NCBI RefSeq assembly: GCF_014633365.1 | Contig: NC_068344.1 | Span: 36,330,670-36,394,669 of the forward strand | Source: Diospyros lotus | Lineage: Eukaryota; Streptophyta; Magnoliopsida; Ericales; Ebenaceae | Length of the DNA: 64,000 bases | Direction: 5' to 3' | Shown: positions 43,874-61,963 of the stretch, one piece after another | Position numbering within the stretch: the first letter of the stretch is position 1 | Layout: every line of letters starts with the position of its first letter | The notes under the pieces: generated by a model | What the model was told of the DNA's origin: nothing | The model's database searches: none | Seen by the model: the letters and a program-made list of their open reading frames with translations, nothing else | Made by a program: the position numbers and the translations under genes

Positions 43874-45230
43874 GAAGCTATTATACGCATTTCCCATATC
43901 ATTCCTCATGGGCCAGACTCAGTCTAATGGGCCGGCCCAATCGACTGAAGCTAGAAGGCCCAAGCGGCCTCGCCAAAGAAAGTCTATACACAATCGAAAT
44001 CCGAATCTCGTACAGCGAGCACCTTGTGAGCTCTCGGCAAAGCCCCTAGCGAGCTCTCAGCGATTGATTAACGAGCTCCCAGCAAAGCCCTCAATTCGCT
44101 AGACCATCAAGATCGCTGGCCTAAAACCTCCAGCTCGCATAAATGACAAAGCTGCTGAGAAGTCAAGGGTAGGGTCCATTTACTTTACCTGCAACAGCCC
44201 ATGCTCCTCGTAATGAGGATCCCACTCCCGATTTTGTGTAGATGATAAGGGTTGTTTGTCCCCCAAAATGTCATCTTTATATTTCTATATGTTATCCAAA
44301 TCATAAAGGCCCTTCATTATAAATAGGAGTTAGAGATACCATGAGGGGTACAAGGAGAATAATCAAACACCGCCATTCTGAAAGAACAATCAGAGTGCGG
44401 ACGTGGAGTAGGCATCGTTCTGGCTGAACCACGTGAAAAGTGCTTGTGTTGACTCACATCTAGGATCTTTGTTTTCCTCCTCTTAGCATTTTTGGACTCA
44501 CTCACCGCGGCCCAAAACGAATCACGGTCGGCTGAAATTGAACGTTAACAGAAGTTGATCGAGTGACATGGGGGGTCACTCGGTCATAACATAATGACTA
44601 CCCCCCTTTCCTAGTCGTTGTTTGTGCCACATGCAATCGGGCCATGCGAACCTCGTGAGACTCAGTCAAAATCGTTCCCGAGATGCTCGCCAAGAGGTGT
44701 GAGTTTCTTACCACCTATTAGTCTCACCCGTCTCTATAAATAAGAGTCCCATCTTAGCAAAGGTACGCTCACAAGGCCACTTAAACTCCAATTGTTTTTC
44801 GAGCTAAGACTAACTTAAGCATTGGATCGAAGCGTCCGCAAATAACCCCACCCGTGCCCTTAACTTGTTTCTTTCTTTATAGGTCACTTGGTCATTTGGA
44901 ACTCTTTCGGTCATCAGACACTTTCTTAGTCATCAGACAACTCTCCTAACACTTTGGAACTCTCGTCACCAAAGAAGACTCATGTCACTAAAGAGGACCC
45001 TCGTCTCCAAGGAAGACTTTCGTCACCAAAGTAGACTTTCATTATTGAAAGAAATCACAACTCATCCTAAGAGTCACAACTCATTTTCCATCTTGAGAGA
45101 CAACTCACAAGCTTATACTAAGACTTCCTTTCGTTGGGATCATTACCCAACTCATTGGCCCACTTGCATCTCACTCTCCCACATTATAAATTTATTATTC
45201 TAATTAGGTAACGATAAAAACTTTTTTCAT
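43560..45230 (+). repeat. probable older LTR fragment split by the solo LTR
   Basis: DNA on the two sides of the solo LTR belongs together: both sides repeat words such as 'tcgagtga', 'gtcactcggtcat' and 'cctagtcgttgttt'. A TATA-like 'ctctataaataagag' near 44733 and repeated 'gtcaccaaagaagac' words (44964-45030) suggest a gypsy-type LTR. No ends or coding region were found, so this is an inference. Confidence 0.35.
43879..44550 (+). mobile_element. solo LTR of the Tat-lineage gypsy family
   Basis: This 672-bp stretch aligns along its length with the 5' LTR of the gypsy element (46109-46655 plus 56245-56393). Shared blocks include 'gggccagactc', 'aacgagctcc', 'ccagctcgcat', 'aaagctgctgagaagtc', 'cctcgtaatgaggatccc', 'aggcatcgttctgg' and 'cggcccaaaacgaatcacg'. 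It begins TATTA (TG changed to TA) and ends TTAACA. The flanks GAAGC (43874-43878) and GAAGT (44551-44555) are a target duplication with one change. It shows what the uninterrupted LTR looks like. Confidence 0.8.
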
Positions 45231-46108: not shown

Positions 46109-46655
46109 TGTTATATGTATTTCCCGCATCACCCCGCATGGGCCAGACTCGGTCCGATAGACCGGCCCAATCACCCAAGGCCAAGAAGGCCCGGACGACC
46201 TCGTCAAGGAAGGTCCAGCCTCCACCAAAGATCCGGAACTCATAAAGCGAGCGTATGGCGAGCTCCCGGCAATCCCCCAACGAGCTCGGAGCAATCGACT
46301 AACGAGCTCCTGAAATATCCTCCAGATCGCTGGACCATCCAGGTCGCTCGCCTAAAATCTCCAGCTCGCATGAGCGGCAAAGCTGCTGAGAAGTCAGAGG
46401 TAGGGTCCGATCACTTTATCTGTAACAGCCCATGCCCCTCGTAATGAGGATCCCACTCCCGGTCTTGCGAAGGCGGTAAGAACTATTTGTCCCCCATTAT
46501 ACAAACACTGTATTTTTATATATTATCTAGATTGTAAAAGCCCCTCAAGAAAAATGGAAATAAAGGAGACCATGAGGGGCAAGGAAGGAGGACAAGAAAA
46601 ATATAATCAGATACCGCCACTCTGGGAGAATAATGAGATGACGGCTGTGGACTAG
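46109..46655 (+). repeat. gypsy 5' LTR, left part
   Basis: 547 bases matching the left part of the 43879-44550 solo LTR. It ends in ACTAG (46651-46655), the duplicated target of the nested element. Confidence 0.85.
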
Positions 46656-48352
46656 TGACTGCTACACTACCCTGCACATTTATTTATCAAAACTACAACC
46701 AAATTCATCCGACGTCAATCCTCTTATTAAAGCAGGTGTATGGCGATTATACTCGCCAGTGTGCGAGTGTGCGTGTAGTACAATTTTAAATTTATATTTC
46801 GGTGAGTCCGAGTCGATTCACAGGGAGATTATTTATTGATGAAAATGAAGATCACAAAATATTTGATTTTAAGAGGTAATTAAGATGATCTAAAGACAAT
46901 AATTAAAGCTAAACTAATACTGAATTTAAGTAGCTTGGGTCAAGGCAATTTCAGTGTCAAAACCAATTAATTCCCAATTTGATAGAAAAGATCAGCAATA
47001 TTCATCTGAATTAAGTTTTACAGCTCTGTTAGTAAATTTAGTTCAAGATAATGGTAATTCTTGTTTAAGCAATATCCATACATGGCATGGAAATTCTAAG
47101 TTAAGCAATTACCATAAATTGAACTATATTCCATAGACAGAATTTATAGATATAGATTAATCATTTAGGCTTGGGTATGAAAACGTTTCCAGATCTAGCA
47201 ATCTCCATACCTGGCATGAAAATTCTAAGTTAGGCTTATGCTTCAATCCAAACTTAAAGATACACTATACGCACACTGCTCAAATTGAATCAGATTAATA
47301 TTACATATTTTAAGCGCAGCTTTCTTTGGGAATCATTGGCGTTGGACACTGTCCTTGCCTTAACCCAAGAATGGATTTAGCTACTCATCTTCATTTTAAA
47401 ATAAATTGGCAGGAATTTAAATAACGGGAATTAAAAGACAGTATTTAAAAGACTATTTTTTAACCGACCATATAGGCGGTATATAATGAAAAGACAATAA
47501 TTGAAAGACTATTTTTTAACCGACCATATAGGCGGTATGTAATTGAAAGACAATAATTAAAAGACTATTTTGAACCGACCATATAGGCGGTATGTAATTG
47601 AAAGACAATAATTGAAAGACTATTTTGAACCGACCATATAGGCGGTATATAATAAAAAGACAATATGAATAACATAATACAACTATATGGAAACAAAGGT
47701 TAAAGATTTAAGAGAAAAATTCTAAGAACAAAACTATATAGAAACTAAAGTTGAAAATTTAAGAGAGAAATCTAAAGATCACAATTATACTTTCATTATA
47801 AGAAAATCCAATCCTTACAAATGCACCCTAAGTGCTCTATTTATAGGCTAGAAAATGTAATGGAAACTATTCAATTATATAATTTAATAATACAAAATAT
47901 CTAATTAATGATGTAAGCGATGATGTAATTCCAACTCATGATGTAAGCGATGATGTCACTCCAACCCATGATGTAAGCGATGATGTCATCAATTTGTGAG
48001 ACTTGGGCTTTTCATATTTTTGGGCTTGGGCCTTGCTTGTGTTGGGCTTGGGCTTGAACCTTCCTTGTGTTGGGCTTGGGTTTGGGCCTTCCTTGTGTTG
48101 GGCTTGGGCTTGGACTTGGGCCTTACTTGTGTTGGGCTTGGGCCTGGGCTTTCCATATTTTTATATTATTATATTATTATATATATTATATTTATTTTTT
48201 TTATATTTTATATATTTTATATATATTTTTATATTAATATTTTAAACATGCACAAAATCACAAAATGCATAATAATATTCAATTTAAACTATTTTAAGAT
48301 CAAAATAAGGGTGAAATTATAACAAAATTTTTACAAAATTGATCACTAATCA
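46656..48352 (-). repeat. LTR of the LOG-carrying element (its 3' LTR)
   Basis: 1697 bp. It contains four 55-56-bp tandem copies around 'accgaccatataggcggtat' (47461-47650), three copies of a 'gatgtaagcgatgatgt' unit (47910-47992) and GGGCTT-rich repeats (48003-48160). Apparent ORFs within it are products of these repeats. Confidence 0.92.
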
Positions 48353-48371
48353 CACCCCCAACTTAAACATT
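48353..48371 (-). promoter_or_regulatory. polypurine tract of the LOG-carrying element
   Basis: Read on the minus strand the sequence is 'gtttaagttgggggtg' followed directly by the LTR start TGATTAG. This is the expected place and composition for the plus-strand primer. Confidence 0.75.
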
Positions 48372-48671
48372 GCTAGTCCTATAGCAATTAAACTTTACAC
48401 TGGCCAGATTTATTCACAATAATCACATGAATATAAAAATTTCAAATTCAAAATGGAAATACATAGAACAGAACAAGCCATCTGTCATACAGTCGAATAT
48501 TCTAAATTAGATTTCAGTCAAAGGTTATACAATCTTAGGAATGGCAATTAGGATGATCATTATTCTACCTTATTCCCTCGAAGTTTCGACTTCAAACCTT
48601 ACTATGGATTTTTCCTCAAATAAAAAAAATTATTCCTCGGGTGTACACATAAGGGAGCCACCGTTTTAAGA
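48366..48671. other. 3' untranslated part of the LOG-carrying element
   Basis: Non-coding DNA between the polypurine tract and the Cassandra insert; nothing recognised in it. Confidence 0.5.
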
Positions 48672-48676
48672 GTAAA

Positions 48677-49726
48677 TGTAACATCCCGCATCGAGCGATA
48701 GGAAGAACCGGAACAACTTACCCTGATGGGCCTACACGAACTTCCCAGGGGGGTCACCCATCATTGGATTGCCCCAGGTCAAGCACGCTTAACTTGGGAG
48801 TTCTTTGCCAACATTCAGCCCAAAAGGTATCCAGCTGGTGTTGTTTCCTTTCTTACACTATCCTCGATATATTCTAATCTCTCTGGGCTCTCGGGGTATT
48901 ACATTCTTCCCCCCTTAAGCACATGACGTCCTCGTCATGCGACCTTACAACTGGTCCCAGACCTTCTCCCCTTGGGGGCTGCCATCCTAGAAGCCTGCCA
49001 GAAGCCGCTTCTTGTACAGGCCCTCGAGCCCCGGCGCCACTCCCCGCCCTCATCAGACCGCTTTCGCCAAGGGTCGGCTCTGATACCACCTGTAACATCC
49101 CGTTCGAACGATAGGAAGGACCAGAACAACTTACCCTGATGGGCCTACATGAACTTCCCAGGGGGTCACCCATCATTGGATTGCCCCATGTCAAGCACGC
49201 TTAACTTGGGAGTTCTTTGCCAACATTCAGCCCAAAAGGTATCCAGCTGGTGTTGTTTCCTTTCTTACACTATCCTCGATATATTCTAACTTCTCTGGGC
49301 CCTCGGGGTATTACATTCTCCCCCCTTAAGCACATGACGTCCTCGTCATGCGACCTTACAACTGGTCCCAGACCTTCTCCCCTTGAGGGCTGCCATCCTA
49401 GAAGCCTGCCAGAAGCCGCTTCTTGTACAGGCCCTCGAGCCCCGGCGCCACTCCCCGCCCTCATCGGACCGCTTTCGCCAAGGGTCGGCTCTGATACCAC
49501 CTGTAACATCCCGTTCGAACGATAGGAAGGACCAGAACAACTTACCCTGATGGGCCTACATGAACTTCCCAGGGGGTCACCCATCATTGGATTGCCCCAT
49601 GTCAAGCACGCTTAACTTGGGAGTTCTTTGCCAACATTCAGCCCAAAAGGTATCCAGCTGGTGTTGTTTCCTTTCTTACACTATCCTCGATATATTCTAA
49701 CTTCTCTGGGCCCTCGGGGTATTACA
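48677..49726 (-). mobile_element. Cassandra TRIM, tandem form (three LTRs, two internals)
   Basis: LTRs lie at 48677-48903, 49091-49315 and 49502-49726, each TGTAACATCCC...GTATTACA, separated by internal segments of about 187 bases. The whole is flanked by GTAAA (48672-48676 and 49727-49731). On the minus strand each internal begins with TGGTATCAGAGCC (initiator Met tRNA primer site) and ends in a purine-rich 'aaggggggaagaa' or close variant. LTR sequence matching 5S rRNA identifies it as Cassandra. A tandem LTR-I-LTR-I-LTR form is expected from unequal recombination between LTRs. It codes for nothing. Confidence 0.92.
48731..48840 (-). ncRNA. 5S-rRNA-like segment of a Cassandra LTR (three copies)
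   Basis: On the minus strand the LTR contains AGTTAAGCGTGCTTG (48794-48780), the 5S internal A box, and GATGGGTGACCC followed by CTGGGAAGT (48762-48740), the C box, in the right order. The same pair occurs in the other LTRs near 49207-49153 and 49618-49564. The middle of the 5S sequence has drifted (GACCTGGGGCAATCCAAT). It is not a ribosomal gene; in Cassandra this acts as a Pol III promoter. Confidence 0.85.
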
Positions 49727-49731
49727 GTAAA

Positions 49732-51066
49732 TGTAAAACAAGTTCAAACTCGGTGTCGTCCCAAATACAAAGAACGTATTTTCATGAAAGAATAGGAAAT
49801 TTAACATAGCTTCATGACTAGAATAATGCCATAGATAAATAACTTCTGAATTTAAACAGAATTCTTTACTCTGAACTCGAATCCTAAGATCACATGATTT
49901 ATAGCATCAAGAGGGACCAGACCGGGTTGTAATGGGGCTATGAGGTTAATACGGGTTGTCAAAGAAAAGGGTAAAGTGTGCAAATGGTGTGTCGGGATTT
50001 TTTTTTCTCTTTTTTTTTTTTTGACACTAATATCAAATTGGACATATTGTTTTCTTCAGCATTTATTTTGAAACACTCGTGCTGAAAAGCTAAGAGAACT
50101 TCCATTTTTTCTTTTTTTCTTTTTTTCCTTTTCTTTCTTTTTTTTTTGTTTCTTTTTAATATGAAAGTACTGAGATAGACTGATTCCTAAAAACACACCA
50201 GGTTGGATAAACTTCATATGGTTCTAGGTTAGACGAGGGTAATGAAAGGAATTATGCTAAGAACAGTTCAAATGGGCTAGCAAGGGGGTTAATGTAAAGA
50301 AAGAAAAAGGTTAATAGGCCCAAATTGAAAGAAATTGATCCCCTATCATGCTTCTATAAAACGATGTTACTCAGTCAACTAATTCAGAGTTTGAAATCAG
50401 CCAAATTCATCCGCCATCATACTAGACATTCAAAGTAAATTGATGTTTTGAAGCTATTGAAAATATGAGATCAACAATAAAGCGCATTTAGAATAAGTGT
50501 TATTTCACTCAGAATTAATGATCATTAGGCTCAAACACTCATTCGGGTAATAGTCTCCACTTCTGTTAAGGGATTATGCAGTGTGCTAATTACCATTGCC
50601 TTTGACTTTATGACCAATAAACCAATTTCTAATTATTGAACTTCCGATGCATGCAAATCACTTATTCTAATCCCATACATGTACGTTTTCAAATAAGAAA
50701 TTAATGCATTCATGATTCATACTGCAAATTCAACTAGCTATCAGTTTATAACTCCAAAGCTTTAGGGATAGCATTATTTAAAGCACACACAATTTTTTTT
50801 AATTTTTAATAGGAGTAGATAAAAGTAAATAATTCACATAAAACTACAAGCATGCAGTTACAAATTCACAATTAAACATGGACTAGATAATTCATAAATA
50901 TACCTTACTCCCCCCAACTTGAATTGCAATAATAAAATAGGATTGTTAGGAATACCTGTAACTCCACGAGTCTGTAAGTTTATTGTGAACTGCTAAATCT
51001 TCAACAAACAAGTGAGAATACTCTACATATATTTTTTTATTTTTTTTTTTACACTGAAATAAGAAA
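49732..51066. other. non-coding interior of the LOG-carrying element
   Basis: Lies 3' of the LOG domain in element orientation. It has T-rich runs (49989-50022 and 50107-50157) and otherwise mixed sequence. No pol domains and no coding frame were found. Confidence 0.5.
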
Positions 51067-51274
51067 AATTCATGCAAGTCATATAATAAAGAAATGCGTC
51101 TCAAGAGTACAAAAAGTACTCCTTACTCAGCCATCTTATCATAGACTTGCCTAACAACATTCCATAATTTTTTAAAACAAAACATAAAATAAATTCATGC
51201 AAGTCAAAATAAACAGATGCGTCTCAAGAGTACAGAAAAGTACTCCTTACTCAGCCATGTTATCATAGACTTGC
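51067..51274 (-). repeat. two tandem relics of the upstream 181-residue ORF
   Basis: Two copies (51067-51150 and 51191-51274) share 'attcatgcaagtc', 'atgcgtctcaagagtac' and 'actccttactcagccat'. The same words, with extra bases between them, occur inside the 181-residue ORF at about 52272-52327. So a piece of that ORF has been copied twice to just beyond the LOG stop codon. Confidence 0.65.
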
Positions 51275-51279
51275 TCTCC

Positions 51280-51963
51280 TTAGAAGGATGAATCTAAATT
51301 AATCGGACCCCTTTTGCGCTTGCTTCCAATTACCTTAGACCAGTCTATCCGAGGCTCGTAAGGATCATGCTGTGGAACATAAGTGTGTAATTTCTCTAGT
51401 AGCTCCTCAATGGTGGATGCAGAAATGAGAATATTTCTTGCAGAAAGAGAAATGAACTTTTGTTCCACAGCCTGATCAAGAAAAGAGAGCAACTCATCAA
51501 AAAAATGGTTAATATTTAAAAGTCCAATGGGTTTGGTATGGAGATTGCTCTTGGCCCAGGAGATTATACAAAAGATTTCTTCAAGTGTACCAAAACCTCC
51601 TGGCAAAGCAATGAAGGCGTCTGACTGATAAATCTTACAAGCCATGCGCTCAGACATAGAAGTCGTTCTTATAAGTTGACCTCGTGTGTACCCGGAAATC
51701 TGTGGATCAGCCAAAGGGATTGGCATAATACCTACCACATATGATTGCCCAAGATGTGCAGCCTGTGAAATACATCCATTCAATCCACGACTTCCCCCTC
51801 CATAGACCAAATTAATTTTTCTCTCTCCCAATTTTATGCCAAGTTCGCTTGCTGCAAGTGTGTAACAAATATCGCTCCCAGGTTGAGAGCCACATAGTAC
51901 ACATATGGTATTGATTCGACGAACTGGCTGGCCTTCTATTTATGTTAGTTCTTTATGTATGCC
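51280..51963 (-). pseudogene. LOG: LOG-like cytokinin riboside 5'-monophosphate phosphoribohydrolase domain in a retrotransposon
   Basis: LOG enzymes release active free-base cytokinins from their nucleoside monophosphates. From 51939 to the TAA at 51282-51280 the minus strand encodes about 219 residues, close to full LOG length. Visible motifs, in order: TICVLCGSQPGSD (Rossmann start), INLVYGGGSRGLNG, a central M-x-x-R (SMSERM), and DAFIALPGGFGTLEE with the catalytic PGGxGTxxE intact (51603-51577). These are followed by KPIGLLNI and a C-terminal YVPQHDPYEP. The usual LOG introns are absent. The Lys that usually follows the Arg of M-x-x-RK is Met here. There is no ATG at the domain start, and a TAA stands in frame at 51942-51940. 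Upstream is a plausible splice acceptor (51965-51964) that would join it in frame to the 181-residue ORF. I call it a pseudogene or disabled fusion, though non-AUG starts or splicing variants are possible. Confidence 0.85.
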
Positions 51964-52082
51964 CTGAAAGTAGAACTGGTTAAAGAGGTTTGGCAATCAA
52001 AAGTAACTACATAGAAATTCAACAATAAATAAACATAAACAAAAATCATGCGTATATACAAGTAGTTGTGATTGTGGCTCAC
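51964..52082 (-). other. candidate 119-nt intron between the two captured ORFs
   Basis: On the minus strand GTGAGC (from 52082) opens and a T-rich run ending CTACTTTCAG (to 51964) closes a U-rich, plant-like intron. Splicing here is phase 0 and keeps the 181-residue ORF frame continuous with the LOG frame, apart from the stops at 52127-52125 and 51942-51940. Confidence 0.5.
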
Positions 52083-52124
52083 ATCTTCCTCTGGTTTTAC
52101 GTCCAGAAACGGCTTAAACACCTT

Positions 52125-52670
52125 CTATGAAGCGGGGATAGGCTTCCCATCCAATTTTCTTATAGATTGGCAAACAGGGTCAATTATAGTCAGATTCCCA
52201 AGACTATAGAGTTGGTGGTCACTTCTAAATTGGGTCCATAAAGCAAGAATTTCTCGCTGCACTATTCCACACGGATGCGTCTCAAGAGTCAATCGGATAT
52301 CATCCAAAGACTCCTTACTCAGCCCATCCTTTATGAAACAAATTTTATCATCTCGATTTATGGAAGTAAACCCCACAGATTTGCATCGTGTGTTATAAGT
52401 CCATCGAGCACATTTGTGACAACTATTTAATCTTTTCGCTCTTCTTTTTTTCAAAAAACTACTTTTTCCCAATCCTGGAAAATGCTTAAAACTAGGTGAG
52501 GTTTCGCCAAGAAATCGAACTTTTGCTTCAATTAACCAGCGAATATCCTCAGGAATATTTTTATACATCAACATTCGAAGTCTTTCACACCTAGTGACAT
52601 AAATCTTTCTTAAATCATTTTGTGGGAGAGATGGATAGTACTTGCGAATTTTCAAGAGCTGAAGATCCAT
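52125..52670 (-). CDS. 181-residue ORF of unknown function upstream of LOG
   Basis: The ORF starts at ATG 52670 and ends at TAG 52127-52125. I do not recognise the family. The protein is basic in the middle (KKRRAKR, near residue 74) and has scattered Cys, including C-H-K-C (near residue 83), which could be half of a zinc site. It has no signal peptide or membrane segment. The open frame continues past the TAG for another 14 codons to a GT donor at 52082, which in frame leads to the LOG domain. This suggests the two were one protein. It lies inside the 9.6-kb element, on its sense strand. Length and composition argue against chance, but no function can be given. Confidence 0.6.
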   Translation of the reverse strand: MDLQLLKIRKYYPSLPQNDLRKIYVTRCERLRMLMYKNIPEDIRWLIEAKVRFLGETSPSFKHFPGLGKSSFLKKRRAKRLNSCHKCARWTYNTRCKSVGFTSINRDDKICFIKDGLSKESLDDIRLTLETHPCGIVQREILALWTQFRSDHQLYSLGNLTIIDPVCQSIRKLDGKPIPAS

Positions 52671-52816
52671 TTTTTTAAAACAGAACTATAGTAAAAGAGA
52701 AATAAAACAAAATTATGAATCTTACAAAAGGAACGAGAGTACCTGATCGGAGAACAACACAAAGGAGAGAAGACTGAGCTCAAAGAAGTGTGGCTTGCCT
52801 CATGCAGATACAGGTC

Positions 52817-52824
52817 TCTTATAG
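52817..52824 (-). promoter_or_regulatory. candidate TATA box before the captured ORFs
   Basis: The minus strand reads CCCTATAAGAGA about 150 bases upstream of the ATG at 52670, followed by CT-rich, leader-like sequence. It may mean that the captured cassette has its own promoter. This is a motif match only. Confidence 0.35.
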
Positions 52825-52893
52825 GGCTGTGCCAGTCACCATTCCAACAACCACACTTGGCTCGAGGCGTGCCACAAGTGCAGGGTCACGTCT

Positions 52894-52988
52894 GGCGTCT
52901 CCTTTTTTCAACGTTCGGCATCTCCTTTTACAACTTTCGGCGTCTCCTTTTTCAACTTTCGGCGTTTATTTTTCAACGCTAGATGTTT
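52894..52988 (-). repeat. 22-bp tandem repeat, about four copies
   Basis: On the + strand the unit is close to 'ggcgtctcctttttcaactttc', repeated about four times with decay at both ends. It lies just upstream of the candidate TATA box. Confidence 0.8.
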
Positions 52989-53174
52989 CTTTTTCTTTAT
53001 AGGGTATTGTGTCCTTTTTCTTTATAGGGCAGTGTGATTGCACTGCCCCAGAAAAGTGGTTGCCGTCAGCGATATGTCTGTCTCCCTCTTTTCTCTATCT
53101 TTTTTTTCTTTTGTGTATATATATATATTTATATTTATTTATTACAAAAACAAATTTTATTTTATTATATATTT
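52989..53174. other. spacer between gag-like frame and captured cassette
   Basis: Short T-rich stretch (about 53085-53210) with no feature I can name. Confidence 0.4.
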
Positions 53175-54161
53175 TTAAATATTTTTCAAGAGTTTTTTTC
53201 TTTTCTTCCAGTTAAGAATCAAATAAGTGGTTGCCCACCTATTCGTATAATAACTCCCATTCATTACACCACGTTTAAAGTTATTTTCAAAATTATGTAA
53301 ATTGATTTTTCTCATAAATGCACATACATATTTTGAAAATATGTAATCCGGAGGTGTTGGCTTTATTACATCAGAGTACGACACATCAATTCGCACAAAC
53401 ACTTCACACATGTCTGGTTTAATTTGATCCCCAATAATATAGACTAGCCTAAAAGACATAAATTTAGGCTCAAGTTTGGCTAGGCTCATGGTATCTTCAC
53501 ATTTGGGCTCTTGGGTTTTATCATTTTCTTTCTCCCAGGCTTCTTCTTTTCTCACATCATTTTAGCCCAATTTTTCTTCTATGATTGCTAGTACCATCCT
53601 AGGGTCATCAAGTCTCTCAATTGATTCATCATTCCTAAGGATGGGTATAGATTTGACCGACTCTTGACCTATGGGTGCATTGAATAACGATTCCTCCCCA
53701 AGACATTGACCTATGGAATTTTGATTAGGTTGGTTTGGAAACTCGCCAAGTTCACTCACGCTCAAGGTCTGTGTAAACTCGGTCAATTGTTCTAAAATGT
53801 CACCTATGGCTCTAGTGGTTTGGTCTTGAAGTTCAACCACTTGTGCATTAAAACTCATTTGACCTTGCATAAACTCCTGAAGGGTGTCCTCTAGAAAATT
53901 TTCATCCTGAGGTTGATAAGCATCAGATCTAACATCTTGTTCTAACTCAAATTGGTGAGGTGGTGGAGGAAAAGGCTCATGAGATTGGAACACAGAGTCA
54001 TTGTTCCAAGGATAATTCCAATGATCACAGGAATTGGGGTAATCAGTGTAAAGATCTGGGTTGTAGCCCGACATATAAGAATTCTCCCTCTGACTCTAGT
54101 CAAAAGAAAACCTCCCCTCACTGGGATCGGGATGGCCAAATGCATTATAAGTCACAGACAT
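53175..54161 (-). pseudogene. gag-like ORF of the LOG-carrying element, two in-frame stops
   Basis: One frame runs from ATG at 54161 to 53175 with stops at 54098-54096 (TAG) and 53564-53562 (TAA). The middle has a Gln-rich helix (EDTLQEFMQGQMSFNAQVVE and on) like the segment after the core gag domain in Athila/Tat gags. The N-terminus is Tyr/Asp/Pro-rich. The C-terminal third (FMSFRLVYIIGDQ and on) I do not recognise. No zinc knuckle and no following pol were seen. It is probably a rump gag or an element-specific protein. Confidence 0.5.
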
Positions 54162-54519
54162 GCTAAAATACTGAGACATAGAGAATATGGAATGATAATT
54201 CAACGGCAGATAATGATGCTAATGAATCAATTAATGTTTCAATAATCATACCTGACCGTAATCTCTTGCATTGTTTAGTAACTAAAAGTTATCTAAATTT
54301 TTTTAAAATTTAATTTTTTAAATTATTTTTAATTTATATTTTTTTATTATTTTTTAATTTATATTTTTTATTATTTTTTAATTTATATTTTTTTATTATT
54401 TTATTATTTTTTTAGTATTTTTTTCAAATATATATTTTATATATATATTTTTTGAAAATAATTTTTTTAATTATTTTTTTTAATATTTTTTAAACAACAA
54501 AATTCAACCAAATTTAATC
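54162..54519. other. 5' leader of the LOG-carrying element
   Basis: Very AT-rich, with repeated 'tttaatttatattttttattatttt' units (about 54300-54420). In element orientation it lies between the primer site and the gag-like frame. Confidence 0.5.
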
Positions 54520-54537
54520 TCCCCGGCAACGGCGCCA
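54520..54537 (-). promoter_or_regulatory. primer binding site of the LOG-carrying element
   Basis: The minus strand reads TGGCGCCGTTGCCGGGGA a few bases from the LTR end, a primer-site sequence commonly found in plant Athila/Tat-type elements. It fixes the element's orientation. Confidence 0.85.
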
Positions 54538-54542
54538 AAAAC

Positions 54543-56239
54543 TGACTGCTACACTACCCTGCACATTTATTTATCAAAACTACAACCAAATTCATCCGAC
54601 GTCAATCCTCTTATTAAAGCAGGTGTAGGGCGATTATACTCGCCAGTGTGCGAGTGTGCGTGTAGTACAATTTTAAATTTATATTTCGGTGAGTCCGAGT
54701 CGATTCACAGGGAGATTATTTATTGATGAAAATGAAGATCACAAAATATTTGATTTTAAGAGGTAATTAAGATGATCTAAAGACAATAATTAAAGCTAAA
54801 CTAATACTGAATTTAAGTAGCTTGGGTCAAGGCAATTTCAGTGTCAAAACCAATTAATTCCCAATTTGATAGAAAAGATCAGCAATATTCATCTGAATTA
54901 AGTTTTACAGCTCTGTTAGTAAATTTAGTTCAAGATAATGGTAATTCTTGTTTAAGCAATATCCATACATGGCATGGAAATTCTAAGTTAAGCAATTACC
55001 ATAAATTGAACTATATTCCATAGACAGAATTTATAGATATAGATTAATCATTTAGGCTTGGGTATGAAAACGTTTCCAGATCTAGCAATCTCCATACCTG
55101 GCATGAAAATTCTAAGTTAGGCTTATGCTTCAATCCAAACTTAAAGATACACTATACGCACACTGCTCAAATTGAATCAGATTAATATTACATATTTTAA
55201 GCGCAGCTTTCTTTGGGAATCATTGGCGTTGGACACTGTCCTTGCCTTAACCCAAGAATGGATTTAGCTACTCATCTTCATTTTAAAATAAATTGGCAGG
55301 AATTTAAATAACGGGAATTAAAAGACAGTATTTAAAAGACTATTTTTTAACCGACCATATAGGCGGTATATAATGAAAAGACAATAATTGAAAGACTATT
55401 TTTTAACCGACCATATAGGCGGTATGTAATTGAAAGACAATAATTGAAAGACTATTTTGAACCGACCATATAGGCGGTATGTAATTGAAAGACAATAATT
55501 GAAAGACTATTTTGAACCGGCCATATAGACGGTATATAATAAAAAGACAATATGAATAACATAATACAACTATATGGAAACAAAGGTTAAAGATTTAAGA
55601 GAAAAATTCTAAGAACAAAACTATATAGAAACTAAAGTTGAAAATTTAAGAGAGAAATCTAAAGATCACAATTATACTTTCATTATAAGAAAATCCAATC
55701 CTTACAAATGCACCCTAAGTGCTCTATTTATAGGCTAGAAAATGTAATGGAAACTATTCAATTATATAATTTAATAATACAAAATATCTAATTAATGATG
55801 TAAGCGATGATGTAATTCCAACCCATGATGTAAGCGATGATGTCACTCCAACCCATGATGTAAGCGATGATGTCATCAATTTGTGAGACTTGGGCTTTTC
55901 ATATTTTTGGGCTTGGGCCTTGCTTGTGTTGGGCTTGGGCTTGAACCTTCCTTGTGTTGGGCTTGGGCTTGGGCCTTCCTTGTGTTGGGCTTGGGCTTGG
56001 ACTTGGGCCTTACTTGTGTTGGGCTTGGGCCTGGGCTTTCCATATTTTTATATTATTATATTATTATATATATTATATTTATTTTTTTTATATTTTATAT
56101 ATTTTATATATATTTTTATATTAATATTTTAAACATGCACAAAATCACAAAATGCATAATAATATTCAATTTAAACTATTTTAAGATCAAAATAAGGGTG
56201 AAATTATAACAAAATTTTTACAAAATTGATCACTAATCA
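54543..56239 (-). repeat. LTR of the LOG-carrying element (its 5' LTR)
   Basis: 1697 bp, the same length as 46656-48352. Differences I can see: one near 54627, one in the third 55-bp repeat, two in the fourth, one near 55821 and one near 55968. Confidence 0.92.
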
Positions 56240-56244
56240 ACTAG

Positions 56245-56393
56245 GCATCGTTCTGGCCGAACCACGTAAAAGATTCTGGTGTACACGCTTGGAACGTCGG
56301 GGGGAGGGGTTTTCTTCCTTCCTTCTCGGTATTTTTGGATTGACTCACCGCGGCCCAAAACGAATCACGGTCGGCCGAAATCAAACGTCGACA
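56245..56393 (+). repeat. gypsy 5' LTR, right part
   Basis: Continues the LTR interrupted at 46655 and matches the end of the solo LTR at 43879-44550 ('aggcatcgttctgg', 'cggcccaaaacgaatcacgg'), ending CGTCGACA. Confidence 0.85.
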
Positions 56394-57703: not shown

Positions 57704-60700
57704 TGTGCCCTGTCAGACCCCCAAGAAAGGATCTTCGCCATCGAAAGGAACAAAAAGGAATTCGGGAAGCCCAACCCGTTAAGAACCCCAAACAAATTCC
57801 GAAACAAAGAAAAATTTTGCGCGTACCACAACGAGGCGGGTCACAACACCTCGGAATGCTGGGCCCTAAGAGACGCCATCGAAGATCTGATAAGAAGAGG
57901 TCGCTTGAAAGATTACGTGGTGCGGCCGACTAATCAACCAAGCCAGCCGCCGGTACAGCAGCAGCCTCCCACCGATGACGACCAATCACCGGCTGTACGA
58001 ACCATCTACACGATCCATGGCGGGCCCCACCTCGCTGGGTCCTCCCACAAATCCCGCGACAAATACATACGAGAGGCCAACCATGTCTTGCTAGCGAGAT
58101 CGGGCGAACAGCCGGTTCCCGCGAAGCGGCCTAGGGGTAACCCAATCCCAGAGAAGATGTTTTTCTCGGAAGAAGACGCCAGAGACGTCCATTGGCCGCA
58201 CAACGACGCACTCGTTATACGAGCCCAGGTCGGCAACTCCGAAGTGCGGAGGATAATGGTGGACACGGGCAGCTCGGTAAATGTAATGTACAGAGCATGC
58301 TTCGATCAGATGGGTTTGGGACCGGAACAGTTGAGTTCATCCCCAGAGCCACTCTATGGGTTCACGGGAGACGCAGTGATTCCCGTCGGTCGGATCAGCC
58401 TTCCCCTCACCATCGGGGATGCGAACCGCCAGGCCACTACTTTGGCAGAATTCCTAATAATTGACTGCCCCTCAGCATACAACGTCGTACTCGGAAGGCC
58501 GGCGATGAACGACCTGGATCTAGTGACCTCAACCAGGTCGCTTACGTTGAAATTCCCGACCCCCGACGGTGTAGGGTGTGTACGAGGCGAGCAGCACCTC
58601 GCAAGACGTTGCTATGAGGACGCCCTGAAAATGGGAGCAAAGGGAAAGAAAGTAAATATCATCGCAAAAGTCGGCCCGCGATCAACCGGCCGATGGGAGG
58701 ACCTGGATCCACGCGAGGTCGACTGCGAAAAGCCCACCGGTCCCATGGAAGAGCTCGAAGATATCTCAGTCGGCGAGGCAGACGAGGAAAGGCACCTCAA
58801 GCTAGGCAAGAGTCTAGCCCCCGAGGTAAAATCCCAACTTACAGATTTCCTTAAAGCTAACCTTGATGTATTCGCATGGAACCACGAAGATATGGTGGGA
58901 ATCGCCCCAGAAGTCATGTCACACAGGCTCAACGTAGATCCAGGCTACAGGCCAGTGCGCCAGAAGAGGAGGCCAATGACTCCGAAGCGTTATACCGCTC
59001 TTAAAGAAGAAGTGGACAAACTCTTGGCGAATAATTTCATCAAGGAAGCCCACTATCCGGTCTGGGTGGCCAACCCGGTCCTAGTAAAAAAGAAAAACGG
59101 GAAGTGGAGGACCTGCATCGACTTCACCGACCTGAACAAGGCCTGTCCTAAAGACAGCTTTCCCCTCCCCAGAATCGATCAGCTCGTGGATGCAACGGCT
59201 GGTCACCGCCTCCTCAGTTTCATGGATGCCTATTCAGGCTACAACCAAATCCCCATGAACCCCACGGACCAAGAGCACACCTCGTTCATAACCGACCGGG
59301 GGCTCTATTGTTACAAGGTCATGCCCTTTGGATTGAAGAATGCTGGCGCGACCTACCAGAGGCTGGTCAATACGATGTTCGAAACACTGATCGGAAAAAC
59401 CATGGAAGTATACGTTGACGACATGCTGGTAAAATCCGAGCAAGTGACGGACCACGTTTCCGATCTAAGAGAAACGTTTGGAGTCCTCAGGAAATATCAG
59501 ATGAAGCTCAACCCGCTCAAGTGCGCATTCGGTGTAGCCTCTGGAAAATTTCTTGGGTTTATGGTAAACAACAGAGGCATTGAAGCCAACCCAGACAAAA
59601 TTAAGGCTCTGCTCGACATGAGGTCGCCCATAAGAAAGAAGGAGGTGCAAAGCCTCAATGGTCAGGTCGCGGCTCTGAGCCGTTTCATTTCAAAGGCAAC
59701 TGACAAGTGTGCCCTGTTCTTCGAGCTTCTAAAAAAGGAGAAAGACTTCAGATGGACAGAAGAATGCGAGTTCGCATTCCAACAACTAAAAGAGTACATG
59801 GGACGGGCCCCACTGCTCGCCAAACCTAAGGAGGGAGAGAGGTTGACCTTGTACTTAGGAGTATCCCAACAGGCTCTCAGCGCGGCCCTCGTTCGGGGGG
59901 AAGAAGGGGTGCAGCACCCCATTTATTACGTCTCCAAAAGCCTAATCGATGCAGAAACAAGGTACGCACCAATCGAAAAATTAGCTTACTGTCTAATAGT
60001 GGCATCAAGGAAGCTGCGACCCTATTTTCAAGCTCATGAGATCGAAGTCCTGACCAAATACCCATTGAAACAAATCCTCCAAAAATCGGATACCTCAGGC
60101 CGTTTACTAAAATGGTCTATTGAGCTCGCTCAGTTCGACATAAAGTACAAACCAAGGACGGCGATAAAGGGTCAAGCGTTGGCAGGCTTCATTGCCGAGT
60201 TTACTGGGCCAATTGACGAGGAGCCGGAAAACCTGAAAAGACCGTCCTGGGAACTATACGTCGATGGATCATCGAACGAACAAGGAGCGGGAGTCGGGGT
60301 TACGCTAATAAGCCCCGAAGGTCACAAAATCCTCTGCGCCCTGAGGTTCGGTTTTTTAGCCACCAATAATGAATCCGAGTATGAAGCCTTATTAGCAGGA
60401 CTCCGCCTGGCAAAGGAAATACGAGCTGAATTCTTGGAGATCTTCAGCGACTCTCAACTAGTTGTCAACCAGGTGCGGGGAGAATACCAGGCCAGAGACA
60501 CGAAGATGGCAGCATACTTACAGAAGGCACGCGAACTTTTAGCCACTTTCGAAAAATATGAAATGCATCAAATCCCCCGTTCCTAGAACTCTCATGCGGA
60601 CGCTCTGGCTCGCCTAGCAACTGCCCGGGACGCAGAATTCTTAGGGGACATACCTGTCGATATTTTTGCCACCCCGAGCACAGAACAACGAGATGAAACG

Positions 60701-61963
60701 CTACTGATCACGGTGCCCCAAAACTCATGGATGACCCCCATCTTGGAATATCTGCAAGACGGGAAACTACCGGAAGACAAGCTGGAAGCACGTCGCCTGC
60801 GAGCTCAAGCCGCCCGATATTGCATCTACGATGAAAGACTGTACAAGAGGGGATTCTCAGCCCCACTCCTGAGGTGCATTGACGGCATCGATTGCCAGTC
60901 TGTGCTAGAAGAAATTCATGCAGGCCACTGCGGTAATCATGCAGGGGCACTCTCTCTGGCACAAAAGGCCCTCCGACAAGGGTTTTATTGGGCCACCGTG
61001 AAGCAAGATGCCATAGAGACGGTCAAGAAATGCGAGAAGTGCCAAAGGTTCGCCAAGGTTCCGCGAGCTCCGCCGGCTTACCTGCAGCAGATGAGCAGCC
61101 CTTGGCCCTTTGCCATTTGGGGCATGGATCTAATCAGGCCGCTGCCCACGGTTCGCGGAGGATGCAAACATGCCATAGTGGCAGTTGACTACTTCACCAA
61201 ATGGGCAGAGGCCAAAGAGCTCGCACAGATCACCAGTGCGAAGACACAAGCTTTTACATGGAATAACATAATCTGCAGATTCGGAGTGCCACAGCAAATA
61301 GTAACGGACAACGAAACCCAATTCACCAGCGAGCAATTCATCCAATTCTGCGAGTCAATAGGGATTCAAAAGAGTTTCACCGCCGTTGATCACCCCCAGG
61401 CCAATGGGCAGGTCGAAGCAGTCAACAAAATAATCAAGCAGACCCTGAAGACAAACCTTGAGGCTAGAAAGGGGGCCTGGGTGGATGAACTGCAAACAGT
61501 GCTATGGACCTATCGGACAATAGCCCGAAGCAGCACTGGAGAAACCCCATTCTCAATGGCGTATGGGTCGGAGGCTATGATCCCCGCTGAGAATAAAGTG
61601 GCCAGCCACCGAAGGGCCACCTTCAGCCCAGATCGCAATAACGAGCTACTGGCGGCTAATCTGGACCTGCTCGAGGAATCAAGAGATGTAGCTCGCGTGA
61701 GGATTGCCATTTATCAACAAAGGGTGGCACGATACTATAACAGGAAGGTCCGAATCTGACGTTACAACGTCGGAGATCCGGTACTACGCCTAGTACTGCC
61801 AGGAGCACGGGCGGCAAGCGATGGCACCTTAGGTCCTAACTGGGAAGGTCCATTTATCATCAAAGAAAATTTGAATAACGGAGCATATCATCTGGAAAAC
61901 ATGGACGGTCTCCCTCTCCCACGAGCTTGGAACGCAGAACACCTTCGTCCTTACTTCAGATAA
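57704..61963 (+). pseudogene. gypsy pol: protease, RT, two RNase H domains, integrase; two stops
   Basis: The frame is the same as the gag core. It has a gag-end CCHC-like region (CAYHNEAGHNTSEC, about 57820-57861), protease with D-T-G-S-S (Asp codon 58262), RT with YVDD (59411-59422), the usual gypsy RNase H, then a second, archaeal-type RNase H (LYVDGSSNEQGAG, from about 60256). Integrase follows, with an H/C zinc site and a D-D-E core (Asp 61127, Asp 61307, Glu 61415). The residue after the second Asp-Asn is Glu where Gly is usual. Stops lie at 60584-60586 (TAG, between RNase H and integrase) and 61757-61759 (TGA, before the C-terminal domain). The frame otherwise ends at TAA 61961-61963. 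The 893-residue open part is nearly undamaged, so decay is mild. Confidence 0.92.

Follow-up and report, generated by a model that had tools for sequence, protein, structure and literature searches.

The window, i.e., the 64,000-nucleotide stretch of the Diospyros lotus genome that was analysed, carries on its minus strand an LTR retrotransposon with two extra genes, an NABP gene and a LOG gene downstream of it, and its features are as follows.

46651–46655: target-site duplication ACTAG, one side
46656–48352, minus strand: 3′ LTR, 1697 bp
48353–48364, minus strand: polypurine tract adjoining the 3′ LTR, assigned from sequence
51280–51324, minus strand: LOG tail SKRKRGPINLDSSF, with the basic cluster kept and LxLxL lost in this copy
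51280–51939, minus strand: LOG frame, 219 codons and a stop, with the start ATG changed to ATA in this copy (PF03641, TIGR00730)
51964–52059, minus strand: intron-like stretch GTATAT...TTTCAG before LOG, splicing predicted
52060–52124, minus strand: near-invariant block that follows the NABP TAG and continues the NABP frame without a stop (FKPFLDVKPEEDVSHNHNY)
52125–52670, minus strand: NABP, 181 aa, with finger Cys92 changed to Tyr in this copy (PF05515, PF01623)
52686–52742, minus strand: candidate 5′UTR intron, donor GATCAG/GTAC and acceptor TATAG/, splicing predicted
52814–52823, minus strand: TATAAGAGAC, candidate TATA box upstream of NABP, conserved in 34 of 35 loci
53562–54074, minus strand: 170-aa ORF at the gag position
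54520–54537, minus strand: primer-binding site TGGCGCCGTTGCCGGGGA, adjoining the 5′ LTR, assigned from sequence
54543–56239, minus strand: 5′ LTR, 1697 bp
56240–56244: target-site duplication ACTAG, other side

The two LTRs, which have TG...CA termini, differ at 6 positions, and ACTAG flanks both ends, in agreement with the almost identical LTRs and the perfect 5-bp duplication given in the preliminary description. The minus strand is assigned as the sense strand since the primer-binding site adjoins the LTR at 54543–56239 and the purine tract adjoins the other LTR. The LTR pair, the 5-bp duplication, the primer-binding site and the polypurine tract are together those of a Ty3/Gypsy element. 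We take the primer-binding site to be of the tRNA-Asp type; this type and the gene position, considered alone, would presumably point to the Athila lineage. Plant substitution rates are about 0.3–1.3 × 10−8 per site per year, at which the LTR divergence of 0.35% corresponds to an insertion age of roughly 0.1–0.6 million years. The absence of pol, also noted earlier, was borne out by a DNA comparison with the autonomous copy L016/L017, in which matches were limited to the LTR stretches, the part downstream of pol and about 0.1 kb of the gag-pol frame. A Pfam profile search found no significant family for the ORF at the gag position, the best hit being CENPH below its cut-off (E 0.01). The element is probably nested within another LTR element, since similar sequences occur at 44409–44550 and 56242–56393, on either side of it, and the plus strand of a GC-rich (~0.5) stretch carries another LTR-element pol at 57905–61759. 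A 411-bp unit is present in 2.5 tandem copies (48677–49726) between LOG and the 3′ LTR; parts of this unit resemble 5S rRNA gene sequence, but an Rfam search of 46600–56300, the repeat included, returned no match at E 0.01. The locus is best explained as a non-autonomous copy, recently inserted and partly decayed, of a large Diospyros lotus Ty3/Gypsy group.

A LOG domain was originally proposed for the range 51280–52670. This assignment holds for 51280–51939, where PF03641 (E 9e-33, 113.7 bits, cut-off 27) and TIGR00730 (117.9 bits, cut-off 96.35) both match and the PGGFGTLEE motif is intact in a frame lying in sense between the LTRs, but not for 52125–52670, which forms an ORF of its own and encodes a Viral_NABP domain. 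The fold of the element LOG was modelled using P0121, an annotated D. lotus protein identical to the LOG of L011, and the model (pLDDT 87) superposes on 2a33 with a TM score of 0.94 at 48% identity; by sequence, the closest solved structures are Arabidopsis At2g37210 and At5g11950. A PHROGs search gave a single DprA-like match (E 1.2e-5). The LOG of relatives starts at MEGQ, for whose ATG the window has ATA, and the ORF finder begins the frame at TTG. Among 33 full-length aligned copies, the start is ATG in 31 and ATA in 2 (the window and L045); 4 of the 33 have an in-frame stop and 29 do not.

The upstream ORF matches PF05515 (Viral_NABP; E 1.6e-7, 32 bits against a cut-off of 23) and PF01623 (Carla_C4; E 9.8e-5, 22.7 bits against 20.9), and the NABP of L020 exceeds both cut-offs with 34.3 and 25.4 bits, respectively. 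Judged from these profiles, its product is a homologue of the carlavirus-type NABP/CRP. The four finger cysteines and a basic stretch reach at least 90% conservation among 74 relatives, and the cysteine at position 92, a tyrosine in the window, is invariant in them. Relatives numbered 343 at E ≤ 10, and those of the 120 listed that bear a species name are from Populus, Xanthoceras, Acer, Rhamnella and Orobanche. The stop codon is TAG in all 30 full-length alignments, 4 of which have in-frame stops. Part of the NABP coding region (gagtaaggag...cttgagacgcatc; 52280–52330) occurs twice again at 51100–51260, downstream of LOG, together with a short palindrome. The structure model is weak (pLDDT 65), and its comparison with BFVD gave no match at E ≤ 0.001 (best E 0.039). 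Its best 27 rows (with 50 of 52 rows available) comprised 4 unnamed and 23 named proteins, all 23 assigned to flexiviruses; the names, below significance, included RNA silencing suppressor and nucleic acid binding protein. No relative was confirmed in IMG/VR scans using either the single protein or the 74-row alignment, and there was no match in a PDB sequence search at E 1 or in PHROGs. Viral CRPs are described as suppressing silencing and determining pathogenicity, and the chrysanthemum virus B CRP is described in addition as a transcription factor that induces hyperplasia (PMC12172455). By analogy, the element NABP, which shares with these proteins the Pfam domain, the basic stretch and, apart from the cysteine replaced in the window copy, the finger, may suppress silencing. 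It differs in being longer (181 aa) and encoded by an LTR retrotransposon, with its suppression predicted, whereas the viral gene is located close to the 3′ terminus of a flexivirus RNA. The flexivirus replicase-like insert of cucumber, as far as the available text describes it (PMC3136472), is another matter.

Autonomous relatives carry the same two genes. Open gag-pol frames of 1824–1861 codons lie upstream of NABP and then LOG in L009, L016, L019 (whose LOG lies in L018) and L020, and gag, protease, RT, RNase H and integrase were found in pieces of L016 and L020 in the Ty3/Gypsy order PR-RT-RNaseH-INT. LTR identity is 100% across 1673 bp in L018/L019 (family B; duplication GACTA), 98.55% in L016/L017 (family A; duplication ATGGC), 98.39% in the non-autonomous L026/L027 (duplication GTTAG) and 99.88% in L020/L021, for which a clear target duplication was sought and not found. 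The gag-pol frames are broken in L010 and L025. The pair is also kept in the non-autonomous copies L013–L015, L022, L027 and the window. However, NABP is interrupted by a stop in L013–L015 and L027 and by a frameshift in L022, and in L016 it has a 4-codon deletion in the finger. Since NABP is broken and LOG is open in each of L013–L015, and L016 lacks part of the finger, NABP need not work in every copy. L013–L015 (G000:C11:16472001-16502000) are three nearly identical non-autonomous copies about 7.3–7.4 kb apart, apparently a tandem array with LTRs in common.

That other copies of the element carry LOG is evident from the first-look candidates in the Diospyros lotus genome, 926 for LOG and 995 for NABP, compared with 5 sites for a host-LOG-specific DNA pattern (reversed control, 0). 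The refutation test proposed in the preliminary description therefore turned out in favour of that description. The best 150 candidates of each gene were scored, a choice that biases the scored copies towards intact ones, and stops were found in 1 LOG row and 6 NABP rows. NABP lies upstream of LOG on the same strand in 37 of 37 distinct LOG-found loci, a count that includes the window and excludes 4 duplicates as well as L012, which has both genes. The spacing, stop codon included, is 170 nt in 34 loci, 169 in 2 and 188 in the window. Conversely, LOG lies downstream of NABP in 9 of 9 distinct NABP-found loci, with a stop in L053 (part of L050) and L056, a frameshift and a stop in L052, and a match limited to the first 61 residues in L055. 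Outside Diospyros, two joined NABP+LOG gene models occur in Orobanche (P0083, P0108). In addition, among contigs of more than 2000 bases, the NABP list (n = 42) and the LOG list (n = 24) have three sizes in common (2128, 4511 and 8723) versus about 0.2 expected, with 0 of 2000 jittered draws reaching three; this comparison is of contig sizes, not of contig sequences.

The reading that we favour, with a chance somewhat better than even, is that NABP and LOG form a two-gene accessory cassette whose predicted activities counter silencing and reprogram host cells; we do not rate it higher because NABP is damaged in L016 and L013–L015. Two conserved extra genes point to an element that supplies its own tools for managing the host. 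Autonomous members would encode gag-pol and then the cassette between pol and the 3′ LTR. The first gene product, a zinc-finger nucleic-acid-binding protein, would dampen silencing of the element, and the second, a LOG-type phosphoribohydrolase related to host LOGs and free of introns, would make active cytokinin and/or recruit co-repressors. LOG action in dividing cells would then allow new copies to be made and inherited.

The single host LOG locus compared has interruptions after HDKPV and before KLQEYVP; at both points the element frame is continuous, suggesting passage through RNA or intron loss; the reported absence of the usual LOG introns thus stands at these two interruptions. In a tree of 61 rows, 35 element-type LOGs fall on one side of a branch (99/94) with 3 Xanthoceras rows next to them and the 22 host LOGs separate. 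The host rows were selected for similarity to the query or to a single host LOG, and distant host LOGs may therefore be absent. The bootstrap was not fully settled and long branches were flagged; a quick 126-row tree agrees. Outside Diospyros, “element-type” is assigned by sequence, with context from the two Orobanche models and the three common sizes. In Xanthoceras, the sister group includes P0125, P0127, P0128 and P0189, annotated proteins whose models each contain parts of two LOG domains. Silencing of host LOG genes by small RNAs, raised in the preliminary description, is unlikely on sequence, as the longest exact shared run is 9 nt (33 element LOG copies versus the 3′ part of one host LOG locus). 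An effect on hormone dose was also raised there as a possibility; the LOG of the window copy has no start codon.

The element LOGs also end differently from host LOGs. Among 106 element-type rows, many of them near-copies, 100 are of full length, of which 87 have an exact LxLxL end and 96 a basic cluster near the end. The three full-length Xanthoceras sister rows have the basic cluster (3/3) and not the LxLxL end (0/3), and the latter is found in 0 of 7 host rows and in 0 of 120 of a larger host set (P0232 and P0240 are in both sets). The motif is short, and the controls gave 1.4% for shuffled tails and 2 of 120 listed NABP rows. The window LOG ends in NLDSSF. The basic cluster and the terminal LxLxL resemble a nuclear signal and an EAR motif; LxLxL is, we assume, a form of the TOPLESS-recruiting EAR motif, and TOPLESS binding by the tail is predicted. 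This tail, which is disordered in the model, would also fit a LOG kept as a nuclear scaffold or co-repressor recruiter that acts on element transcription or silencing instead of on cytokinin. However, the catalytic-region motif PGGxGT[LM]E[EQ] is retained in 103 of the 113 rows, among which are host-type ones, and R98, E120 and E121 are at least 90% conserved in alignment A4, all of which would be needless for a pure scaffold and makes this alternative unlikely. The PGGxGTxxE motif and the conserved Arg, whose role is presumably catalytic, are likewise present in the window LOG and at least 90% conserved in A4. Phosphoribohydrolase activity of the element LOG on cytokinin monophosphates is a prediction of the cassette reading.

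It was also considered whether the pair is passenger cargo, taken up by an ancestral element and since replicated with it at no benefit to the element. The window copy, having lost the LOG start and a finger cysteine, and the stops in some LOG and NABP alignments would be expected in that case. By a simple counting method with no significance test, however, dN/dS between the window and representative copies of other lineages is 0.15–0.26 for NABP and 0.31–0.38 for LOG, and between families A and B (L011, L003) it is 0.24 for NABP and 0.27 for LOG; values of up to 3.3 in very close pairs are due to the few changes between them. Both cassette genes therefore appear to be under purifying selection. 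They are moreover kept by autonomous and non-autonomous copies alike, with relatives in several eudicot orders, and passenger cargo is accordingly quite improbable. The preliminary description was right to call the element non-autonomous, but the LOG is not chance cargo, since it is family-wide, in sense, constrained between lineages and paired with NABP everywhere examined. That a nucleotide other than a cytokinin precursor, be it a monophosphate or an immune signal, is the substrate of the LOG is very doubtful, because the fold and closest solved relatives of this protein are those of LOGs, although it scores 76 bits against a cut-off of 300 for the cytokinin equivalog NF058542 (a comparison of the element LOG) and the residues after the conserved Arg (ERMACKI, ERIARML) are unlike those of the host (QRKAEMA).

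Within the two-gene cassette reading, the cassette also appears to have moved between families. Between A and B, cassette dS is 0.16/0.21, whereas the synonymous sites of three gag-pol pieces are saturated, so that no dS is computable, with dN of 0.07–0.10. DNA identity is ~70% in the LTR, 69–74% in gag-pol and 85% in the leader (184 gap columns), versus 93% in NABP, 96% in the intergenic region, 92% in LOG and ~80% downstream. Since the cassette is much less diverged than pol, its exchange via recombination or template switching is the simplest account. Alternatively, there may be constraint at the nucleotide level, which may apply to the block after the NABP TAG. Over 68 nt, TAG included, 33 of the 37 loci show 0–1 differences in this block, and one locus differs at 24 of the 68 positions; the block may represent readthrough, a splice signal or the remnant of an older, longer protein. 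P0070 and P0073, foreign relatives that have no NABP stop, translate it alike (FKPFLDVKPKEDVSHNHNY, FKPLLDVKPEEDVSHNHNY).

Regarding expression, the candidate donor GATCAG/GTAyT is kept in 35 of 35 loci, and the cassette would have its own promoter and alternative splicing, where the choice of acceptor could give either an NABP or a LOG mRNA; readthrough of the NABP UAG may occur beside splicing. Maize Grande is a precedent for such a promoter: downstream of its pol and ahead of the 3′ LTR it has an accessory gene that is driven by its own promoter and encodes a nuclear protein, but this gene is antisense and its protein unrelated (PMC7264820), whereas the Diospyros cassette lies in sense.

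A plant Gypsy YgdH/LOG domain has a precedent in PMC9289625, where Steinbauerova 2011 is cited. In the available part of this account, the domain is described in Gypsy elements of Citrus sinensis and C. clementina and, without the authors’ filter, of Populus trichocarpa (PMC9289625). These are LOG-type domains in Ty3/Gypsy elements, as in Diospyros, and are very likely of the same gene lineage, since Populus rows fall inside the element branch of the tree. However, that part of the account covers the domain only and mentions neither an NABP partner nor a tail, selection, exchange or a survey of copies (PMC9289625). What is new here is the NABP–LOG pair, the LxLxL tail and the Diospyros burst, and no report of a retrotransposon NABP gene or of an NABP–LOG pair was found in the openly licensed literature. 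The orchid Gypsy element with an AlkB-type RNA demethylase similarly has an extra ORF whose activity is named and for which a counter-surveillance role has been proposed, but in the available description it is a different enzyme, from one genus, and a single extra gene (PMC9289625). Insect LINEs with tobamovirus-like helicase domains also combine a plant-virus-type domain with a retrotransposon, but are reportedly non-LTR elements with another gene in animal hosts (PMC4686597, PMC5563155).

The preliminary description, a young non-autonomous LTR element with a plant-type intronless LOG, was thus correct but too narrow, as it missed NABP. A broader version of the cassette reading is that of a host-reprogramming cassette across eudicots, in which a silencing suppressor and a nuclear cytokinin enzyme with a co-repressor tail, under their own promoter, would be swapped as a module between backbones and would raise transposition in meristem or germline-founding cells. 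This version is tentative, and we consider it less probable than its opposite; if true, a plant retroelement would handle a hormone pathway as pathogens do. The extra genes of plant LTR elements mostly have no recognisable homologues or known functions, according to the parts of two sources available (PMC7264820, PMC9289625). Both Diospyros extra genes, in contrast, have named relatives and clear predicted activities, are present in high copy and are separately testable. Element LOGs are also annotated as host genes, e.g., P0121 of D. lotus under the name LOGL10, which distorts gene-family counts. If the two proteins are active, RNA viruses and retrotransposons would have a silencing-suppressor gene in common, and the retrotransposons would counter RNA silencing and touch cytokinin or co-repressor signalling.
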